Below are positions 1 to 7,993 of a stretch of 21,029 nucleotides of DNA, piece by piece. The stretch lies in IMG/VR virus record IMGVR_UViG_3300044630_001513, positions 1-21,029 of that record; one strand, written 5' to 3'. The position numbers and the translations under genes are program-made. Each line of letters opens with the position of its first letter. Positions within the stretch are counted from its first letter, which is position 1. The notes beneath the pieces were generated by a model that ran no database searches, was not told the origin of the DNA, and saw nothing but the letters and a program-made list of their open reading frames with translations. The stretch comes from a virus.

Positions 1-42
1 AGTCTCTGCTGCTGTACCTTTAGTCTTACTTGGGTTTGCCAC
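1..42 (-). CDS. Probable Holliday-junction-resolvase-like nuclease, N-terminal end only (partial)
   Basis: Fourteen codons are visible before the gene leaves the window. A GTG start (42-40) overlaps the TAG stop of the SSB gene by one base, giving VANPSKTKGTAAET. Many actinophage PD-(D/E)XK proteins annotated as resolvase-like begin with an NPSK-x-KGT-x-AE motif, and the KG-x-x-AE element also resembles the first helix of archaeal Hjc resolvases, which cut four-way DNA junctions. A role beside SSB, helicase and exonuclease fits recombination. The AAGAAG stretch within the last SSB codons could serve as a weak ribosome binding site. The assignment rests on a short motif only; the catalytic part lies outside the window. 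Confidence 0.55.
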   Translation of the reverse strand, partial: MANPSKTKGTAAET

Positions 43-374
43 TAAAACTTCTTAACTGGTGCTGAAACTGTATTAGCAGAGATCTCATCAACAGTTTTAT
101 TTATACCCTCTTTGTTGGTATAACTACGTTGTTTAAGTTCTCCAGTAATAATAATGGAATCTCCTTTTTTAAAAGTGTTAGCTGTGTTTTCTGCAGCTTT
201 GCCCCAAACACTTCCACTCAAGTAAATAGGATCTGTGTTAACCCATTCACCTGTTTCTGTTTTCTTTCTTGAATTGCAAGCTATACGAAAATTAGCACAA
301 GCTTTTTCGTTATAAAACTTTAATTCAATATCGTCTACTAGATTTCCTTCTGCAACTATTGTTGGGTATGGCAT
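42..374 (-). CDS. ssb: Single-stranded DNA-binding protein (OB fold)
   Basis: A 110-residue protein that would coat single-stranded DNA during phage replication and recombination. The sequence follows the bacterial/phage SSB pattern: an N-terminal strand (TIVAEGNLVDD), the FRIAC strand, a KKTETGEWVNTDP loop followed by a WGKAAENTANTFKKGD segment, and a GELKQRSYTNKEG strand. Unlike cellular SSBs (about 160-180 residues) it has no glycine-rich linker and no acidic DDIPF-type tail; it ends with the basic tail APVKKF. A TAGGAG ribosome binding site lies about 7 nt before the ATG. It sits last in the visible replication operon, and its stop overlaps the start of the next gene. Confidence 0.9.
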   Translation of the reverse strand: MPYPTIVAEGNLVDDIELKFYNEKACANFRIACNSRKKTETGEWVNTDPIYLSGSVWGKAAENTANTFKKGDSIIITGELKQRSYTNKEGINKTVDEISANTVSAPVKKF

Positions 375-456: not shown

Positions 457-1248
457 TCAAATTACTGCTCTTTCTGGATCCGATATAAACATACGCTCAG
501 GTTGAAACTCAAGCATATGAACTGCTTTACCAGTTGGATCTGCCTTACCATAACGATTCTTAACACTGGCTACTCCGAGATAACCACCATTAGGATCTTG
601 TCCAATAGTTAGAATCAAAGCTGGTAACTGATTTACCATTCCTTGAATCGCTGCTCTTGGTTGACAAGGAGTTCCTTCATATGTTTCTTTTGTATGATGA
701 AGAACTATAACTGCAGCATTGGTTTCCCTTGCTAAAAATTTTAGTTCTTTCATTGCTGAACGCATACCAGACCACTCTTCTGCACCATCCATAGCAACAT
801 CCATCAAGTTATCTACGACAATCATTGATGGTGACTCTCCCCATAGTTCTTCGAATGCAAGAACATTCTGGTAAAGATCATCTAAGTTTGGAGCTGACTC
901 AAACAACCAATAGATATGTTTAGAACAATCTAGTTTTTGTTTGAAAGCTTCTGGTTCTTGTTCCATAGTACGCTCTGAATCAATCTGAGTAACACCAGTA
1001 ACCATTGAATACAATCGCATTGCCATTGTATGTAGGTTTGTATCAGCAGAGACATAAAGTGTTGGCACGTTTGCTCTTAATGCAATAGCTAATGCCAATG
1101 TACTTTTACCAGCACCAGGTGTTCCTGCTACTAGAGATACTTCTGCTCTTCTGAATATGATGTTGTTATTGGAAAGTGTTGTGAACACTGTAGGAATAGG
1201 TTCTCCACCAATGTCTTGCTTGCCAACAGATCTAATCAGTGTGCGCAT
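457..1248 (-). CDS. DnaB/RecA-superfamily replicative ATPase (helicase-like)
   Basis: A 263-residue RecA-fold ATPase. Walker A is GTPGAGKST (residues 42-50), Walker B is MIVVDNL (142-148), followed by a VLHHTKE element (183-188) and a KNRYGKADPTG segment (230-240) like the Lys/Arg-Gly motif of DnaB and RepA-type hexameric helicases. It corresponds to the C-terminal motor domain of DnaB alone (DnaB is about 450-470 residues), with no N-terminal primase-interaction domain. Probable role: unwinding DNA at the phage fork or loading a recombinase. The ATG abuts the TAA stop of the upstream zinc-ribbon gene and has no clear ribosome binding site, so expression probably depends on translational coupling. 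It could also be a RecA-like recombination ATPase. Confidence 0.8.
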   Translation of the reverse strand: MRTLIRSVGKQDIGGEPIPTVFTTLSNNNIIFRRAEVSLVAGTPGAGKSTLALAIALRANVPTLYVSADTNLHTMAMRLYSMVTGVTQIDSERTMEQEPEAFKQKLDCSKHIYWLFESAPNLDDLYQNVLAFEELWGESPSMIVVDNLMDVAMDGAEEWSGMRSAMKELKFLARETNAAVIVLHHTKETYEGTPCQPRAAIQGMVNQLPALILTIGQDPNGGYLGVASVKNRYGKADPTGKAVHMLEFQPERMFISDPERAVI

Positions 1249-1686
1249 TTAAGCATTCACACTCTTACATTGCGATTGCCCTTTAGGCATCGAGCAAGAA
1301 TAGAATGCTGGATATCCTTTACCTGTTGTCTTAGACATTCCACCTTTAACAAATCGCATTGGACCGTGTTCGCACATTGGTACGACACCAGTCGGTGCGT
1401 TAGTTGGGACTGGGCTGAAGCCAGCAGGTCTTACTGGTGCAGGAGGAGTTGGCTTACTAGCCAATGGATCTGGAATTACAGTCCCATTAAATGCAGCTTG
1501 TATCTCTGCAACAGAAGTTGGTTTAAACTTTTGTTGTAATGAACTAATCATTTCGATTAGTACTTGATCATCGTGCAAGTTTGCAAGGTTAAGTGCAAAC
1601 TCATCTTTAGTGTCCCCTCTAACAGTTAATAGATCTCCATTAACTTTAGTAGTAAAGGAATATGTTGCTTCTGTTGTATTAGCCAT
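1249..1686 (-). CDS. Hypothetical protein with C-terminal zinc-ribbon
   Basis: A 145-residue protein. The N-terminal ~65 residues are mixed alpha/beta, a proline-rich linker follows (~residues 72-102), and the C-terminus carries a C-E-H-G...C...C pattern (CEHGPMRF...YSC...QCK) typical of a small zinc-binding module found in many actinophage replication operons. It lies between the exonuclease and helicase genes and overlaps the exonuclease fragment by 8 nt; GGAGAAATGA serves as ribosome binding site from inside that gene. The position suggests a DNA metabolism role, such as a loader or adaptor, but no catalytic motif is visible. Confidence 0.75.
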   Translation of the reverse strand: MANTTEATYSFTTKVNGDLLTVRGDTKDEFALNLANLHDDQVLIEMISSLQQKFKPTSVAEIQAAFNGTVIPDPLASKPTPPAPVRPAGFSPVPTNAPTGVVPMCEHGPMRFVKGGMSKTTGKGYPAFYSCSMPKGQSQCKSVNA

Positions 1687-2332
1687 TCATTTCTCCAATT
1701 GTGTGTGCTAACGATCCATTCCTCCACTTGCAATAATCTGTTCGAGAACACATCTTGCAGTTAGTTAAGTTAGGAATATATAAGTTAGCTTTCCTTGCTC
1801 TATTAAATTCCTTGATTAAATATTCTACTGTTGAAGTAGGTACTAAATCAAGATCTAATGGAACACCTGTACCACCTTGACGAGCCATCCAGTAGGTTCC
1901 CCAGCGAGGTCTAATTCCGAATGTCTGCTCCATTCCAGCAGCGTAGAACGCAAGCTGTAGGTCAGATGATGGAGTGTTCCTTCCAGTTTTAATATCCAGG
2001 ATAATTAATTCACCTTCAGGATTTACCATCACTCTATCAAGAACCATCTTGACAAGAGTGTTATCAAACTTTGGTGTTAAACCAAGTTCAATAGCTGGAT
2101 CTCCATTAGGTGTTTCCCAGATCTTCCAACCAGAATTTTTTTTCCAGTTAATCCAAGAGTTAACAAAGTCAATACCATTGTTGAACCACCAATCGTAGTT
2201 CTCGCCACCTGGATTTGCTTTTGTTGTTCTTACTGATTGCCTGAAATCTTCTTTAGCTACCTTGTCGTAGCCTCTGTCTTTAGATTCATAGTCCCAGGCT
2301 TCACGCCATATATCTTGAATGTCTAAGACCAT
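1679..2332 (-). CDS. Cas4/RecB-like PD-(D/E)XK exonuclease, C-terminal fragment
   Basis: A 217-residue protein holding most of a RecB/Cas4-family nuclease: E82 (IELG), D99 (MVLDRV), the catalytic D113-x-K115 (ILDIKTG), the QLAFY element (Q126, Y130) and three C-terminal cysteines, C192-x2-C195-x5-C201, expected to ligate an Fe-S cluster. It lacks the N-terminal part of the family: the first cluster cysteine and the motif-I histidine. Both are encoded by the separate ORF at 2705-2911, with another gene in between. It begins IQDIWREAWDYE, which would follow naturally after the end of that N-terminal fragment. The start overlaps the middle gene by 10 nt and is served by AAGGA. Probable role: DNA end processing or recombination, as two subunits if functional. 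Confidence 0.8.
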   Translation of the reverse strand: MVLDIQDIWREAWDYESKDRGYDKVAKEDFRQSVRTTKANPGGENYDWWFNNGIDFVNSWINWKKNSGWKIWETPNGDPAIELGLTPKFDNTLVKMVLDRVMVNPEGELIILDIKTGRNTPSSDLQLAFYAAGMEQTFGIRPRWGTYWMARQGGTGVPLDLDLVPTSTVEYLIKEFNRARKANLYIPNLTNCKMCSRTDYCKWRNGSLAHTIGEMNG

Positions 2333-2712
2333 AACTTGAATCCTTTTTCAATAGGTAAGTAACCAACTATCTTAGTTACTTTTTCTTGGTTCTCAAAGTC
2401 TGTAGTTGCAGGAAGATTCTTTTGTTCTGCAAACTCTACATCCATAGTTAGTAAGTTAAATCCCCAAGCACCTTTAGGTGTGGCATTGAAGTAAGCAGGA
2501 ACTAATCTTTTAGTACTTGCTTCTTCTAGTAACCTGGCATACTTAGAGTATTCGATTAACAAAGTATCGTAATGGGTCATTCGACATTTAAGTTCTATGT
2601 ATGCACCAAGTTGTTTTGATGTGCAGTCATTAGTTGAAAACTTATTATCACTCTTAACTAGATCAGGGATAACTGCTTTTAACTTATCAAAAAATTCTTG
2701 TTCGTTATACAT
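2323..2712 (-). CDS. PD-(D/E)XK nuclease-like protein inserted between exonuclease halves
   Basis: A 129-residue protein located between the N- and C-terminal fragments of the Cas4-like exonuclease, overlapping the first by 8 nt (ATGTATAA) and the second by 10 nt. The sequence has a possible nuclease core: D22/D29 upstream, then AYIELKCR with E40-x-K42, followed by a helix with YDTLLIEYSKYARLL and a YFNATPKGAWGFNL segment. Similar IELK-R...LIE-KY proteins occur in environmental phages and look like small PD-(D/E)XK endonucleases. Placement inside a split gene resembles free-standing phage homing endonucleases, but homing activity is inference. It could equally be an independent nuclease or a partner subunit. 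Only a weak ribosome binding site is seen, so translational coupling is likely. Confidence 0.65.
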   Translation of the reverse strand: MYNEQEFFDKLKAVIPDLVKSDNKFSTNDCTSKQLGAYIELKCRMTHYDTLLIEYSKYARLLEEASTKRLVPAYFNATPKGAWGFNLLTMDVEFAEQKNLPATTDFENQEKVTKIVGYLPIEKGFKLWS

Positions 2713-2911
2713 TCTTGGATGCTTCCCATTCTCTCAAGTCATAAAGTTCAGTTGCCTTATGCACTGCTGATCCACCTAAGTTCCAGATAGCTGGTGTCTC
2801 TGGTGTGTCCACAATCCTTGACAGAAAGTACAACCATCCACACTCTAACCAAGTTGTGAATGCAGAATAACTAACGTGCTCAGGTATTTTGTAATCATCA
2901 ATTTCAATCAT
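2705..2911 (-). CDS. Cas4/RecB-like exonuclease, N-terminal fragment
   Basis: A 68-residue ORF that matches only the start of Cas4/RecB-type nucleases: IPEHVSYSAFTTWLECGWLY supplies the family's S-x-S...W-x-x-C-x3-Y element, with C24 as the expected first Fe-S ligand, and NLGGSAVHKATELYD supplies the G-x3-H motif with H51. It stops after LREWEASKNV, exactly where the family continues into the region encoded by 1679-2332. It has the strongest ribosome binding site of the block (AAAGGAGG, 8 nt before ATG), and that site lies in a predicted hairpin. It is the first gene of the leftward replication unit. It may be a functional small subunit acting with the C-terminal fragment, or a decaying remnant. 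Confidence 0.75.
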   Translation of the reverse strand: MIEIDDYKIPEHVSYSAFTTWLECGWLYFLSRIVDTPETPAIWNLGGSAVHKATELYDLREWEASKNV

Positions 2912-2993: not shown

Positions 2994-3133
2994 CCACACA
3001 AACCAGTGTGGGAGAAGTTATCAGCGTGTTGCTGATAGCTTTGCTATAGCATAGCTATAGCTAGCAATTCGCCTCAAAGCGAATTGCTTGCTAGGGTAGC
3101 ATACTATTTCGTTATTGTAAAACCAACACGCTG
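2994..3133. repeat. Cluster of inverted repeats in divergent intergenic region
   Basis: Several stem-loops are packed between the leftward exonuclease unit and the rightward lysin unit: CCACAC/GTGTGG (2994-2999, 3006-3011); TATCAGC-gtgtt-GCTGATA (3019-3037); the 8-nt palindrome GCTATAGC twice, 11 nt apart (3043-3050, 3054-3061); and GCAATTCGC-ctcaaa-GCGAATTGC (3064-3087), a 9-bp stem. CAGCGTGTTG (3022-3031) is complementary to CAACACGCTG (3124-3133), which would enclose the whole set and compete with the second hairpin. There are no T-tracts as in intrinsic terminators. The cluster may hold operators, an origin, or RNA structure. Confidence 0.6.
3098..3126 (-). promoter_or_regulatory. Possible leftward promoter for the replication unit
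   Basis: On the minus strand TTGGTT, a 17-nt spacer and TATGCT give a weak sigma-70-like match (plus positions 3121-3126 and 3098-3103). Transcription from here would produce a leader of roughly 180 nt containing all the hairpins before the exonuclease start at 2911. The hexamers are poor, so this is tentative. Confidence 0.25.
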
Positions 3134-3183
3134 CTATGGTGTGTCAGGTTTTATGTGCTATTCTAGTCTACGTTAGGAGGCAA

Positions 3184-3531
3184 ATGCTATTTCTAATACC
3201 ACCTATTGACTTGCCTGTCGAAAGCCAGCCTTTCGTACGCACCTGGTCACCACCAGCCTCTCGTTCATATGTCAGATTTTATGTTCGAGGATTAGGTTGG
3301 AATGATGAAGAGTGGAAGTGTCTTGATGAGCTCGTTAATCGTGAGTCTCGTTGGGATATGAGAGCAGATAACCCTAAGTCTAGTGCTTTTGGTTTATTCC
3401 AAGTTCTTAAAACTAAGGAAGACTCAACACTTCAAGACCAGGTAGAAGCAGGTCTTAGATACATTGACTCCAGGTATGACGGCTCAAGTTGTGAAGCTTT
3501 ACGCCACCATAACAGGAGGAATTGGTATTAA
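3184..3531 (+). CDS. Lytic transglycosylase-like peptidoglycan hydrolase (small endolysin)
   Basis: A 115-residue protein when started at the ATG at 3184, which is preceded by AGGAGG (3175-3180); the frame is open to an ATG at 3136, but that start lacks a ribosome binding site. Residues ~38-115 fit the lysozyme-like SLT fold: LGWNDEEWKCLDELVNRESRW with the presumed catalytic E54, then NPKSSAFGLFQ, then QVEAGLRYIDSRYDG and a C-terminal HHNRRNWY. Such enzymes cleave the glycan strand of peptidoglycan and serve in phage lysis or cell entry. No signal peptide or membrane segment is evident (the N-terminal MLFLIPPI stretch is short and proline-broken), so a holin or virion association would be needed. 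It lies divergent from the replication genes, with a zinc-ribbon gene directly downstream. Confidence 0.75.
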   Translation: MLFLIPPIDLPVESQPFVRTWSPPASRSYVRFYVRGLGWNDEEWKCLDELVNRESRWDMRADNPKSSAFGLFQVLKTKEDSTLQDQVEAGLRYIDSRYDGSSCEALRHHNRRNWY

Positions 3532-3738
3532 GTGATAGACCCTAGAGGTATTCCCACTGCAACTTGCCCTAATTGTGGGTGCGATCTTATATGGATCGTG
3601 GCTACATTTGATCAAGAGACTTATGAAGTGTCAGGATATCTTCTAGATAACGCTAAGTGCTTTCATTGTGAGACTCCTCTTACTGCGCCTTGTAATGAAG
3701 ACGCAGTAAGTAGGGGTCTTCCTGAAGCTAGTCTTTAG
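3532..3738 (+). CDS. Small zinc-ribbon protein
   Basis: A 68-residue protein beginning with GTG immediately after the TAA of the lysin gene (TAAGTG); AGGAGG lies 12 nt upstream, somewhat far. It carries two knuckles, CPNCGC (residues 12-17) and CFHC (43-46), separated by a FDQETYEVSGYLLDNAK segment, and starts with MIDPRGIPT, as in small zinc ribbons of actinophages. Probable Zn-binding; function unknown. Its last 11 nt overlap tail-to-tail with the convergent small gene at 3728-3865. Confidence 0.75.
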   Translation: MIDPRGIPTATCPNCGCDLIWIVATFDQETYEVSGYLLDNAKCFHCETPLTAPCNEDAVSRGLPEASL

Positions 3739-4986: not shown

Positions 4987-5177
4987 CTTGAAGCCTCCAT
5001 AGTTTCAGTGTGACCTATCTCCTGCCATTCCTCAGCTCTAGCTTCATAGTTATTTATATGAGCATTGACTAAGTGTTTTCTAATTCTTCTTGCAATCTCC
5101 TCATCTGGAATGTCTGTCTCTTCTCCAGTTGTTTCAATCTCGAATGCTTCTAACCATTCAGCTTGATCTTTTTGCAC
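4983..5177 (-). CDS. Hypothetical acidic protein, 64 aa
   Basis: A GTG start (5177-5175) sits inside the 3' end of whiB (20-nt overlap), preceded by GGAGAAAAG. The product is strongly helical and acidic (EWLEAFEIETTGEETDIPDEEIARRIRKHLVNAH...). It ends HTETMEASR, where ACTATGGAGGC provides a ribosome binding site for the following ATGA-overlapped gene. No domain was recognised. Co-translation with WhiB suggests linked dosage. Confidence 0.65.
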   Translation of the reverse strand: MQKDQAEWLEAFEIETTGEETDIPDEEIARRIRKHLVNAHINNYEARAEEWQEIGHTETMEASR

Positions 5178-5394
5178 CTTTTCTCCACCTTAAATTGTTT
5201 CTTTCTAGAGTGGAAGTTCCACCCCATATTCCTACTAGATCTATATTCTCCATTGCATATTCCCTGCATTCCTGGATCAAAGGACATCTTCTACAGACCC
5301 ACTTAGCATATGTTGTTAGATACGCTTCGTGCTTTTCTGGAAAGAAAATATCGCTTCCGATCTCTTTACATAGTGCATTAGTTGTATCGAACAT
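5158..5394 (-). CDS. WhiB-family Fe-S transcription regulator
   Basis: A 78-residue protein with the full WhiB signature: four cysteines C9, C34-x2-C37-x5-C43 to bind a [4Fe-4S] cluster, followed by the G-I-W-G-G turn (residues 55-59) and a basic C-terminal tail (RNNLRWRKGAKR) likely to contact DNA. In actinobacteria Wbl proteins bind the principal sigma factor region 4 and redirect transcription; phage copies (for example in mycobacteriophage TM4) down-regulate host Wbl genes. Its presence is the best evidence for an actinobacterial host. It is in the middle of the leftward early array, after a 70-nt gap with a hairpin; its ribosome binding site (AAAGAGAG) is weak. Confidence 0.93.
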   Translation of the reverse strand: MFDTTNALCKEIGSDIFFPEKHEAYLTTYAKWVCRRCPLIQECREYAMENIDLVGIWGGTSTLERNNLRWRKGAKRSS

Positions 5395-7433: not shown

Positions 7434-7796
7434 CTAGATAGTTAATTCTTCTGTCTGGCTAATATCGAACACATAGTCCGACTTAAACCCGATCTTCTCC
7501 TCTTCTTTAGCATTCTTATACACTAACGGCACAAGAATAAACATTCCAGACTCACCACGCCGAACACATCTTCCTTGCTTCTTCCATTCCATAAACCCAG
7601 CGCATATTGTAGCCCCTGGATCTTGAAGCTTTATGAGTAAAGAATTACGCGCCGAATATGGCTCTTCGATATTCGACAACTTAATGACACGCTCTATATC
7701 GTCATTCTTCGCGATATATTCCGTAGTTAATGCCACTAATTCCTTGATCCATTCGCGCTTCTGTCGTGCTTCCTCTTCGGTTAATTGCTTCTTCAT
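7434..7796 (-). CDS. Stand-alone ArdC-type N-terminal domain (antirestriction-like)
   Basis: A 120-residue protein when started at the ATG at 7796 (GAGG 4 nt upstream, TAATG overlap with the previous gene). Residues ~48-116 match the N-terminal ssDNA-binding domain of ArdC antirestriction proteins: SARNSLLIKLQ (48-58), ATICAGFMEWKKQGR (62-77), RRGESGMFILVP (79-90) and VFDISQTEEL (109-118). The C-terminal HExxH metalloprotease-like domain of plasmid ArdC (about 300 residues in total) is absent, and the gene ends cleanly. In plasmids ArdC protects incoming DNA from restriction; here only the DNA-binding part is kept, so anti-restriction is plausible but unproven. Confidence 0.75.
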   Translation of the reverse strand: MKKQLTEEEARQKREWIKELVALTTEYIAKNDDIERVIKLSNIEEPYSARNSLLIKLQDPGATICAGFMEWKKQGRCVRRGESGMFILVPLVYKNAKEEEKIGFKSDYVFDISQTEELTI

Positions 7797-7993
7797 TATT
7801 CCTCCCCTTCTAGCCATTCATTAGGTGCTTCATATTGCTTCCACAATTCGGCAATATCCACGCCCGACTTCTTCAAGGCTAACTCTACTATCGCCGTCTT
7901 CCACGCTTCCTCTTCAATATCCAAATAGTCCTCGCGCCAGAATGCAACATTCACGCGTGCTTCTCGCTTTATGTCTTCAATATCTAGTTCCAT
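7796..7993 (-). CDS. Hypothetical protein, 65 aa (paralogue candidate of 8272-8385)
   Basis: The ATG at 7993 is chosen because AAGGAGGATGTA precedes it; an earlier in-frame ATG (8011) would contain that site. The acidic helical product (MELDIEDIKREARVNVAFW...) ends near SGVDIAELWKQYEAPNEW. The GV-x-D-x-x-ELWKQY segment and the 16-nt translation start region recur in the gene at 8272-8385, suggesting duplication followed by divergence. Function unknown. Confidence 0.65.
   Translation of the reverse strand: MELDIEDIKREARVNVAFWREDYLDIEEEAWKTAIVELALKKSGVDIAELWKQYEAPNEWLEGEE

Follow-up and report, generated by a model that had tools for sequence, protein, structure and literature searches.

Two complementary genes of freshwater actinophages encode halves of a Cas4/RecB-like exonuclease that very probably assemble in trans

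The question raised by this locus was whether two small genes of a viral genome, each carrying part of the motif set of a Cas4/RecB-like exonuclease, jointly specify one enzyme. It was considered very likely that the two proteins assemble in trans into a single PD-(D/E)XK nuclease of this type with an Fe-S cluster at their interface; the division into two genes is shown by the sequence, and the assembly, the cluster, the activity and the biological role are inferred. The relevant features of the window (the whole 21,029-nucleotide stretch of viral DNA analysed) were as follows.

42..374, minus strand: single-strand DNA-binding protein (SSB), on the same strand as the exonuclease genes (Pfam SSB, 6.4e-20)
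457..1248, minus strand: DnaB-like helicase, same strand and gene run (phrog_243, 9.3e-74)
1249..1686, minus strand: downstream neighbour, 145 aa, matching the mycobacteriophage L5/D29 gp49 family (Pfam PF25690, 6.4e-8)
1679..2332, minus strand: C-half gene, 217 aa, with the PD-(D/E)XK core and three Fe-S cysteines, C192, C195 and C201
2323..2712, minus strand: slot gene M, 129 aa, a predicted Hjc-like PD-(D/E)XK protein, between the N-half and the C-half
2705..2911, minus strand: N-half gene, 68 aa, with helices that bear C24, the N-terminal Fe-S cysteine, and the histidine of motif I (GGSAVH51)

The three minus-strand ORFs of 68, 129 and 217 aa were consecutive with short overlaps, slot gene M overlapping both the stop of the N-half (ATGTATAA) and the start of the C-half (ATGGTCTTAG), and the start of the 145-aa neighbour overlapped the C-half stop. 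A strong Shine-Dalgarno sequence, AAGGAGG, was located 8 nt 5' of the ATG of the 68-aa ORF, and the 217-aa ORF had its own, AAAGGA. The ORF positions, the distribution of residues over the two ORFs and the ribosome binding site of the first gene had all been claimed in a sequence-only reading of the window, and all held.

Elsewhere in the window, an inverted repeat (tagcaattcgcctcaaagcgaattgcttgcta) was located at about 3030-3110, between the minus-strand exonuclease run and divergent plus-strand genes. By eye, a lysozyme/transglycosylase-like motif (ESRWDMRADNPKSSAFGLFQV) was recognised in a 131-aa ORF (3136-3531, plus strand), which was followed by a 68-aa zinc-ribbon-like ORF (3532-3738). 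A 78-aa ORF (5158-5394, minus strand) had a WhiB-like cysteine pattern, WhiB-like genes being a marker of this actinophage family (PMC10202952), and a 127-aa ORF (7434-7817, minus strand) resembled the N-terminal domain of ArdC-type anti-restriction proteins, both again by eye.

The exonuclease profile phrog_1870 matched the 68-aa ORF at 5e-8 (profile positions 11-66 of 313) and the 217-aa ORF at 2.5e-46 (77-291 of 313), E-values at which neither match can be due to chance. The two matches were collinear and complementary, without overlap and with about 10 profile positions between them. Pfam PDDEXK_1 matched the N-half at 0.006 (profile positions 1-49) and the C-half at 3.5e-6, and Cas_Cas4 matched the C-half at 2.6e-4, just under Pfam's cut-off. 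All RecB motifs were present, with the motif I histidine, the GxxD-type aspartate of motif II, the D-x-K of motif III and the Q-x3-Y motif found as H51, D99, D113-x-K115 and Q126-x3-Y130, respectively, together with four conserved cysteines, one N-terminal (C24) and three C-terminal (C192/195/201), as in Cas4 (PMC4176176). These elements were spread over two ORFs, unlike the single polypeptide that is the usual form of the family, though not a stated requirement for it: the 68-aa ORF held G-x3-H51 and C24, its sole cysteine, and the 217-aa ORF held E82, D99, D113-x-K115, Q126-x3-Y130 and exactly three cysteines, C192/C195/C201. The earlier claim that neither ORF alone is complete and that together they carry exactly four Fe-S cysteines was thus confirmed, as one plus three. 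Since Cas4 proteins build their cluster with one N-terminal and three C-terminal cysteines (PMC4176176), a cluster formed alike here must be shared between the chains.

An intact relative of 283 aa (L088) was modelled (pLDDT 84) and showed a helix with GGxAxH at 41-60, a loop at 61-70 and the next helix at 71-86. By alignment, the splits fall at this loop, between two helices, so that no core element is lost. Overlap of the two fragments or loss of core strands, either of which would have refuted the sequence-only reading, was therefore found in neither form, the profile matches being 11-66 and 77-291 and the split lying in a loop. In Foldseek searches the L088 model matched ACE1 (1.4e-8), AdnAB, AddB, Dna2, Cas4 and EXO5, from which a RecB-like fold is predicted for the family. 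The structure models were of single chains only, with trimmed C-half pieces in the folding alignment, and the prediction, resting on a one-chain relative, does not cover the two-chain assembly.

Alignments of the C-half and the middle gene served as queries in scans of viral contigs, and phage and bacterial loci were added. The identical three-gene arrangement was found in four close relatives, and the same split in 159 further virus records. After removal of same-contig loci, 184 loci had both halves, 159 of them split and 25 intact; these numbers are not prevalences, because the search patterns that steered the sample were built from split members. Loci from bacterial genomes (Streptomyces, Herbidospora) were intact in 6/6 cases. 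Two of the split records were cultured lytic phages of 'Ca. Planktophila' strain LanE-43 (ct2KA10; OX376640 and OX376641), in which the exonuclease halves are 61 and 202 aa long and their genes overlap directly. The main text of the source paper for these phages (PMC10202952) mentions no exonuclease, Cas4 or split.

The window is a metagenomic virus record, and its divided gene could in principle be a product of faulty assembly or sequencing, or a pseudogene in decay. Such an explanation was all but excluded by the recurrence of the split with intact frames in the 159 further records, the two cultured phage genomes among them, and by dN/dS values well below 1: among close relatives these spanned 0-0.12 (N-half), 0.03-0.20 (C-half) and 0.06-0.19 (middle gene). 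Both halves are thus under purifying selection. Each of 14 whole records (26-40 kb, two being the cultured phage genomes) had one N-half and one C-half, and no intact exonuclease copy was found in any of the 14; in three of them a single search hit spanned the N-half, the slot and the C-half and contained stop codons. Decay and assembly error were ruled out on the basis of these counts, the low dN/dS and the invariant residues described below. The remaining two outcomes named beforehand as fatal to the sequence-only reading, an intact copy elsewhere and a middle ORF created by misassembly, were accordingly not met. With two ORFs and no intact copy in the whole records, the system was filed as a split variant of the phrog_1870 family.

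Residue conservation extended over both chains. Cys24 and His51 of the N-half, and Asp99, Asp113, Lys115, Gln126, Tyr130, Cys192, Cys195 and Cys201 of the C-half, were invariant in 160/160 split pairs (window included), and the invariant N-half residues also included helix residues around Cys24 and His51. That catalytic and Fe-S residues are invariant on both chains in every pair speaks for a joint function; the heterodimeric nuclease with a cluster across its interface, proposed in the sequence-only reading, is supported by this invariance, with assembly, cluster and activity remaining inferred. Alternatively, the large protein might work alone, the small one being a relic or having another job, e.g. 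as a regulator. In favour of this, the large protein contains the entire D/DxK/QxxxY core, and cysteine mutations in Pcal_0546 and SSO1391 left DNA cleavage intact (PMC4176176). Against it, purifying selection on the small gene is strong, and the invariant residues of its product include the ligand cysteine, the motif I histidine and the helix residues around them. Nor is it ever absent given enough upstream sequence: the only partnerless C-halves lay about 200 nt or less from the end of a contig, and an N-half was always present where a C-half had more than about 200 nt upstream. A large protein acting alone was therefore judged very unlikely. The distances of N-halves and C-halves correlated (r 0.81-0.87), as genes inherited together would; common ancestry contributes to this no less than interaction, and the same value in intact proteins shows that the correlation is by itself no evidence of contact.

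The slot between the halves was empty in 99 of the 159 split loci, the two genes overlapping or abutting, mostly with overlaps of 8, 17, 20 or 1 nt and in two different frame relations. In the others it held the 129-aa family (10 loci), DUF7004 (3), phrog_18407-like genes (18), a small ORF family (23, assigned on weak matches of 34-50 bits), DUF7004 together with the 129-aa gene (1), the 129-aa gene together with a phrog_18407-like gene (2) or other content (3, including a 41-aa zinc-finger-like ORF in locus L199). None of the slot genes (129-aa family, DUF7004, phrog_18407-like genes and small ORFs) was recognised as a homing endonuclease, and none gave a convincing match to anti-phage defence models. 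The L199 ORF is located at 2083-2208 of its locus, and the near neighbour L200 has none; as the exonuclease C-halves of the two are near-identical and their slots differ, turnover of the slot can be a recent event. The sequence-only reading noted neither the conservation of the middle ORF as a gene nor the presence of other genes, or of none, at its position in other phages.

The content and frames of the slot also bear on whether the halves are joined after all, as a single fused protein made through programmed frameshifting, ribosome bypassing, an intron or an intein. The frames of empty-slot forms overlap by 1-20 nt, and a frameshift could in principle join them. However, the relative frame of the two halves differs between lineages, being either +1 or +2, filled slots hold one or two whole genes that would have to be skipped or read through, and the C-half has its own start and Shine-Dalgarno sequence. 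An Rfam scan of the window gave no match (intron or other structured RNA), and in the empty-slot forms neither an intron nor an intein could be accommodated. Production of a fused protein was considered very improbable because the frame relation varies by lineage and many lineages have whole genes between the halves; taken together, the variety of slot contents and of junction frames speaks against frameshift, intron and intein, and equally against decay and assembly error.

The 129-aa slot protein had no match in Pfam or PHROG. Its AlphaFold model (pLDDT 89) gave, in Foldseek, archaeal Holliday junction resolvases Hjc as best PDB matches (E 3.8e-4, TM about 0.6, rmsd 4.8), and D29 and E40-x-K42 were invariant. 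It resembles Hjc in predicted fold, size and the D and ExK residues, and differs in that identity is only about 10-17% in the best matches and no activity is known for it. We regard the 129-aa ORF as a conserved gene in its own right, for which an Hjc-like resolvase identity is a model-based possibility without a sequence-level family match. A homing-endonuclease identity was rejected, given the absence of Pfam and PHROG matches and the fold match to Hjc.

A related proposal concerns the origin of the split, namely that insertion of a homing endonuclease, the 129-aa ORF, broke the gene as mobE did in Aeh1 nrdA; such an origin would not exclude a working two-chain enzyme. For it speak the predicted PD-(D/E)XK nuclease fold of the 129-aa protein, its location exactly in the split, and the precedents of Aeh1 nrdA and phage 25 gene 43 (PMC2988022). 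Against it, the slot is empty in most of the split relatives sampled (99/159) and holds unrelated genes in others, the ct2KA10 homologue of the 129-aa gene lies outside the slot, about 3.6 kb downstream, and the folds most similar to that of the 129-aa protein belong to Holliday junction resolvases rather than to homing endonucleases. This origin was judged unlikely.

The history of the split was addressed in a tree of 37 split and 12 intact representatives, in which the split rows formed one side of a branch with support 80/83, recovered in 78% of bootstrap trees. On this tree one change suffices between the intact and split states, and slot content needs at least 16 state changes; 'M' and 'M+P' were scored as different states, so that 16 is a count of state changes and not of insertions. 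In a smaller tree a single origin of the split was neither shown nor rejected (AU p 0.42). One fission in an ancestor of these freshwater actinophages is thus likely, on moderate support (80/83), after which the slot lost or gained content on at least about 16 occasions. The intact one-chain relative nearest the split clade, on a long branch, is L034 (113-988); it is the best pointer to the pre-fission state, or might conceivably represent a re-fusion.

For the preferred two-subunit reading the following mechanism is proposed. The small subunit would supply the motif I histidine and one cluster cysteine, and the large subunit the other three cysteines along with the aspartates that bind metal, the lysine and the QxxxY motif. 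The subunits are inferred to bind through helices that form one uninterrupted layer in intact relatives, and the four cysteines would then close an Fe-S cluster at the interface, stapling the subunits together. The cluster might be [2Fe-2S] rather than the [4Fe-4S] type named in the sequence-only reading, by analogy with Cas4 proteins, in which both occur (PMC4176176). The enzyme would probably trim DNA ends while phage DNA replicates or recombines, alongside the DnaB-like helicase and SSB. Fission probably occurred once, and the new gene boundary would then have become a landing slot for unrelated genes, here the putative Hjc-like resolvase gene. In a bolder form, which we hold to be likely, the nuclease is an obligate two-subunit enzyme whose cluster, completed only when the subunits meet, acts as an assembly staple, and which arose once, was kept through wide divergence and left its boundary as a recurrent acquisition slot.

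Whether the cluster of iron-staple nucleases is structural glue remains an open question, because cysteine mutations matter for activity in one Cas4 and not in others (PMC4176176), and the split pair offers a natural system for asking it; a cultured phage-host pair carrying the split exists. It also indicates that a fixed gene fission can leave a lasting slot, open to the gain and loss of other genes, with no homing endonuclease recognisable.

Both the actinophage Cas4 exonuclease family and split phage enzymes that reassemble were known already; no report of a split RecB/Cas4 nuclease with divided Fe-S ligands and active site was found in the open-access literature searched. The closest known proteins are the actinophage Cas4-family exonucleases of phrog_1870 (Obama12 gp69, Phrankenstein gp56), which share about 30% identity with the C-half, the same motifs, the four cysteines and a nearby DnaB-like helicase gene, but form one chain of about 263-269 aa rather than two chains from two genes. 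CRISPR Cas4 (SSO0001, Pcal_0546) and the Argonaute-associated ACE1 share the RecB-like fold, motifs II and III, QhXXY, and one N-terminal and three C-terminal cluster cysteines, and differ in being single chains of weak sequence similarity; no CRISPR adaptation protein was found among the window proteins examined. The iron-staple nuclease domains of AddB, AdnAB, Dna2 and EXO5 are alike in fold, as matched by the intact relative L088. Unlike the split pair, these domains lie on one chain, mostly with a helicase. In Aeh1 NrdA, phage 25 gp43A/B and T4 topoisomerase, one enzyme likewise consists of two reassembling polypeptides, with DNA between the halves that varies by phage (PMC2988022), assembly of the split chains being assumed for T4 topoisomerase (PMC2988022). 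The comparison with Aeh1 NrdA made in the sequence-only reading held in part: the exonuclease too comprises two adjacent complementary ORFs that are intact in relatives, but no homing endonuclease gene was found in its split, and its slot is often empty or holds varied genes. The splits of those enzymes contain homing endonucleases or untranslated DNA, whereas the exonuclease combines diverse other genes in its slot with an Fe-S site divided between two chains.
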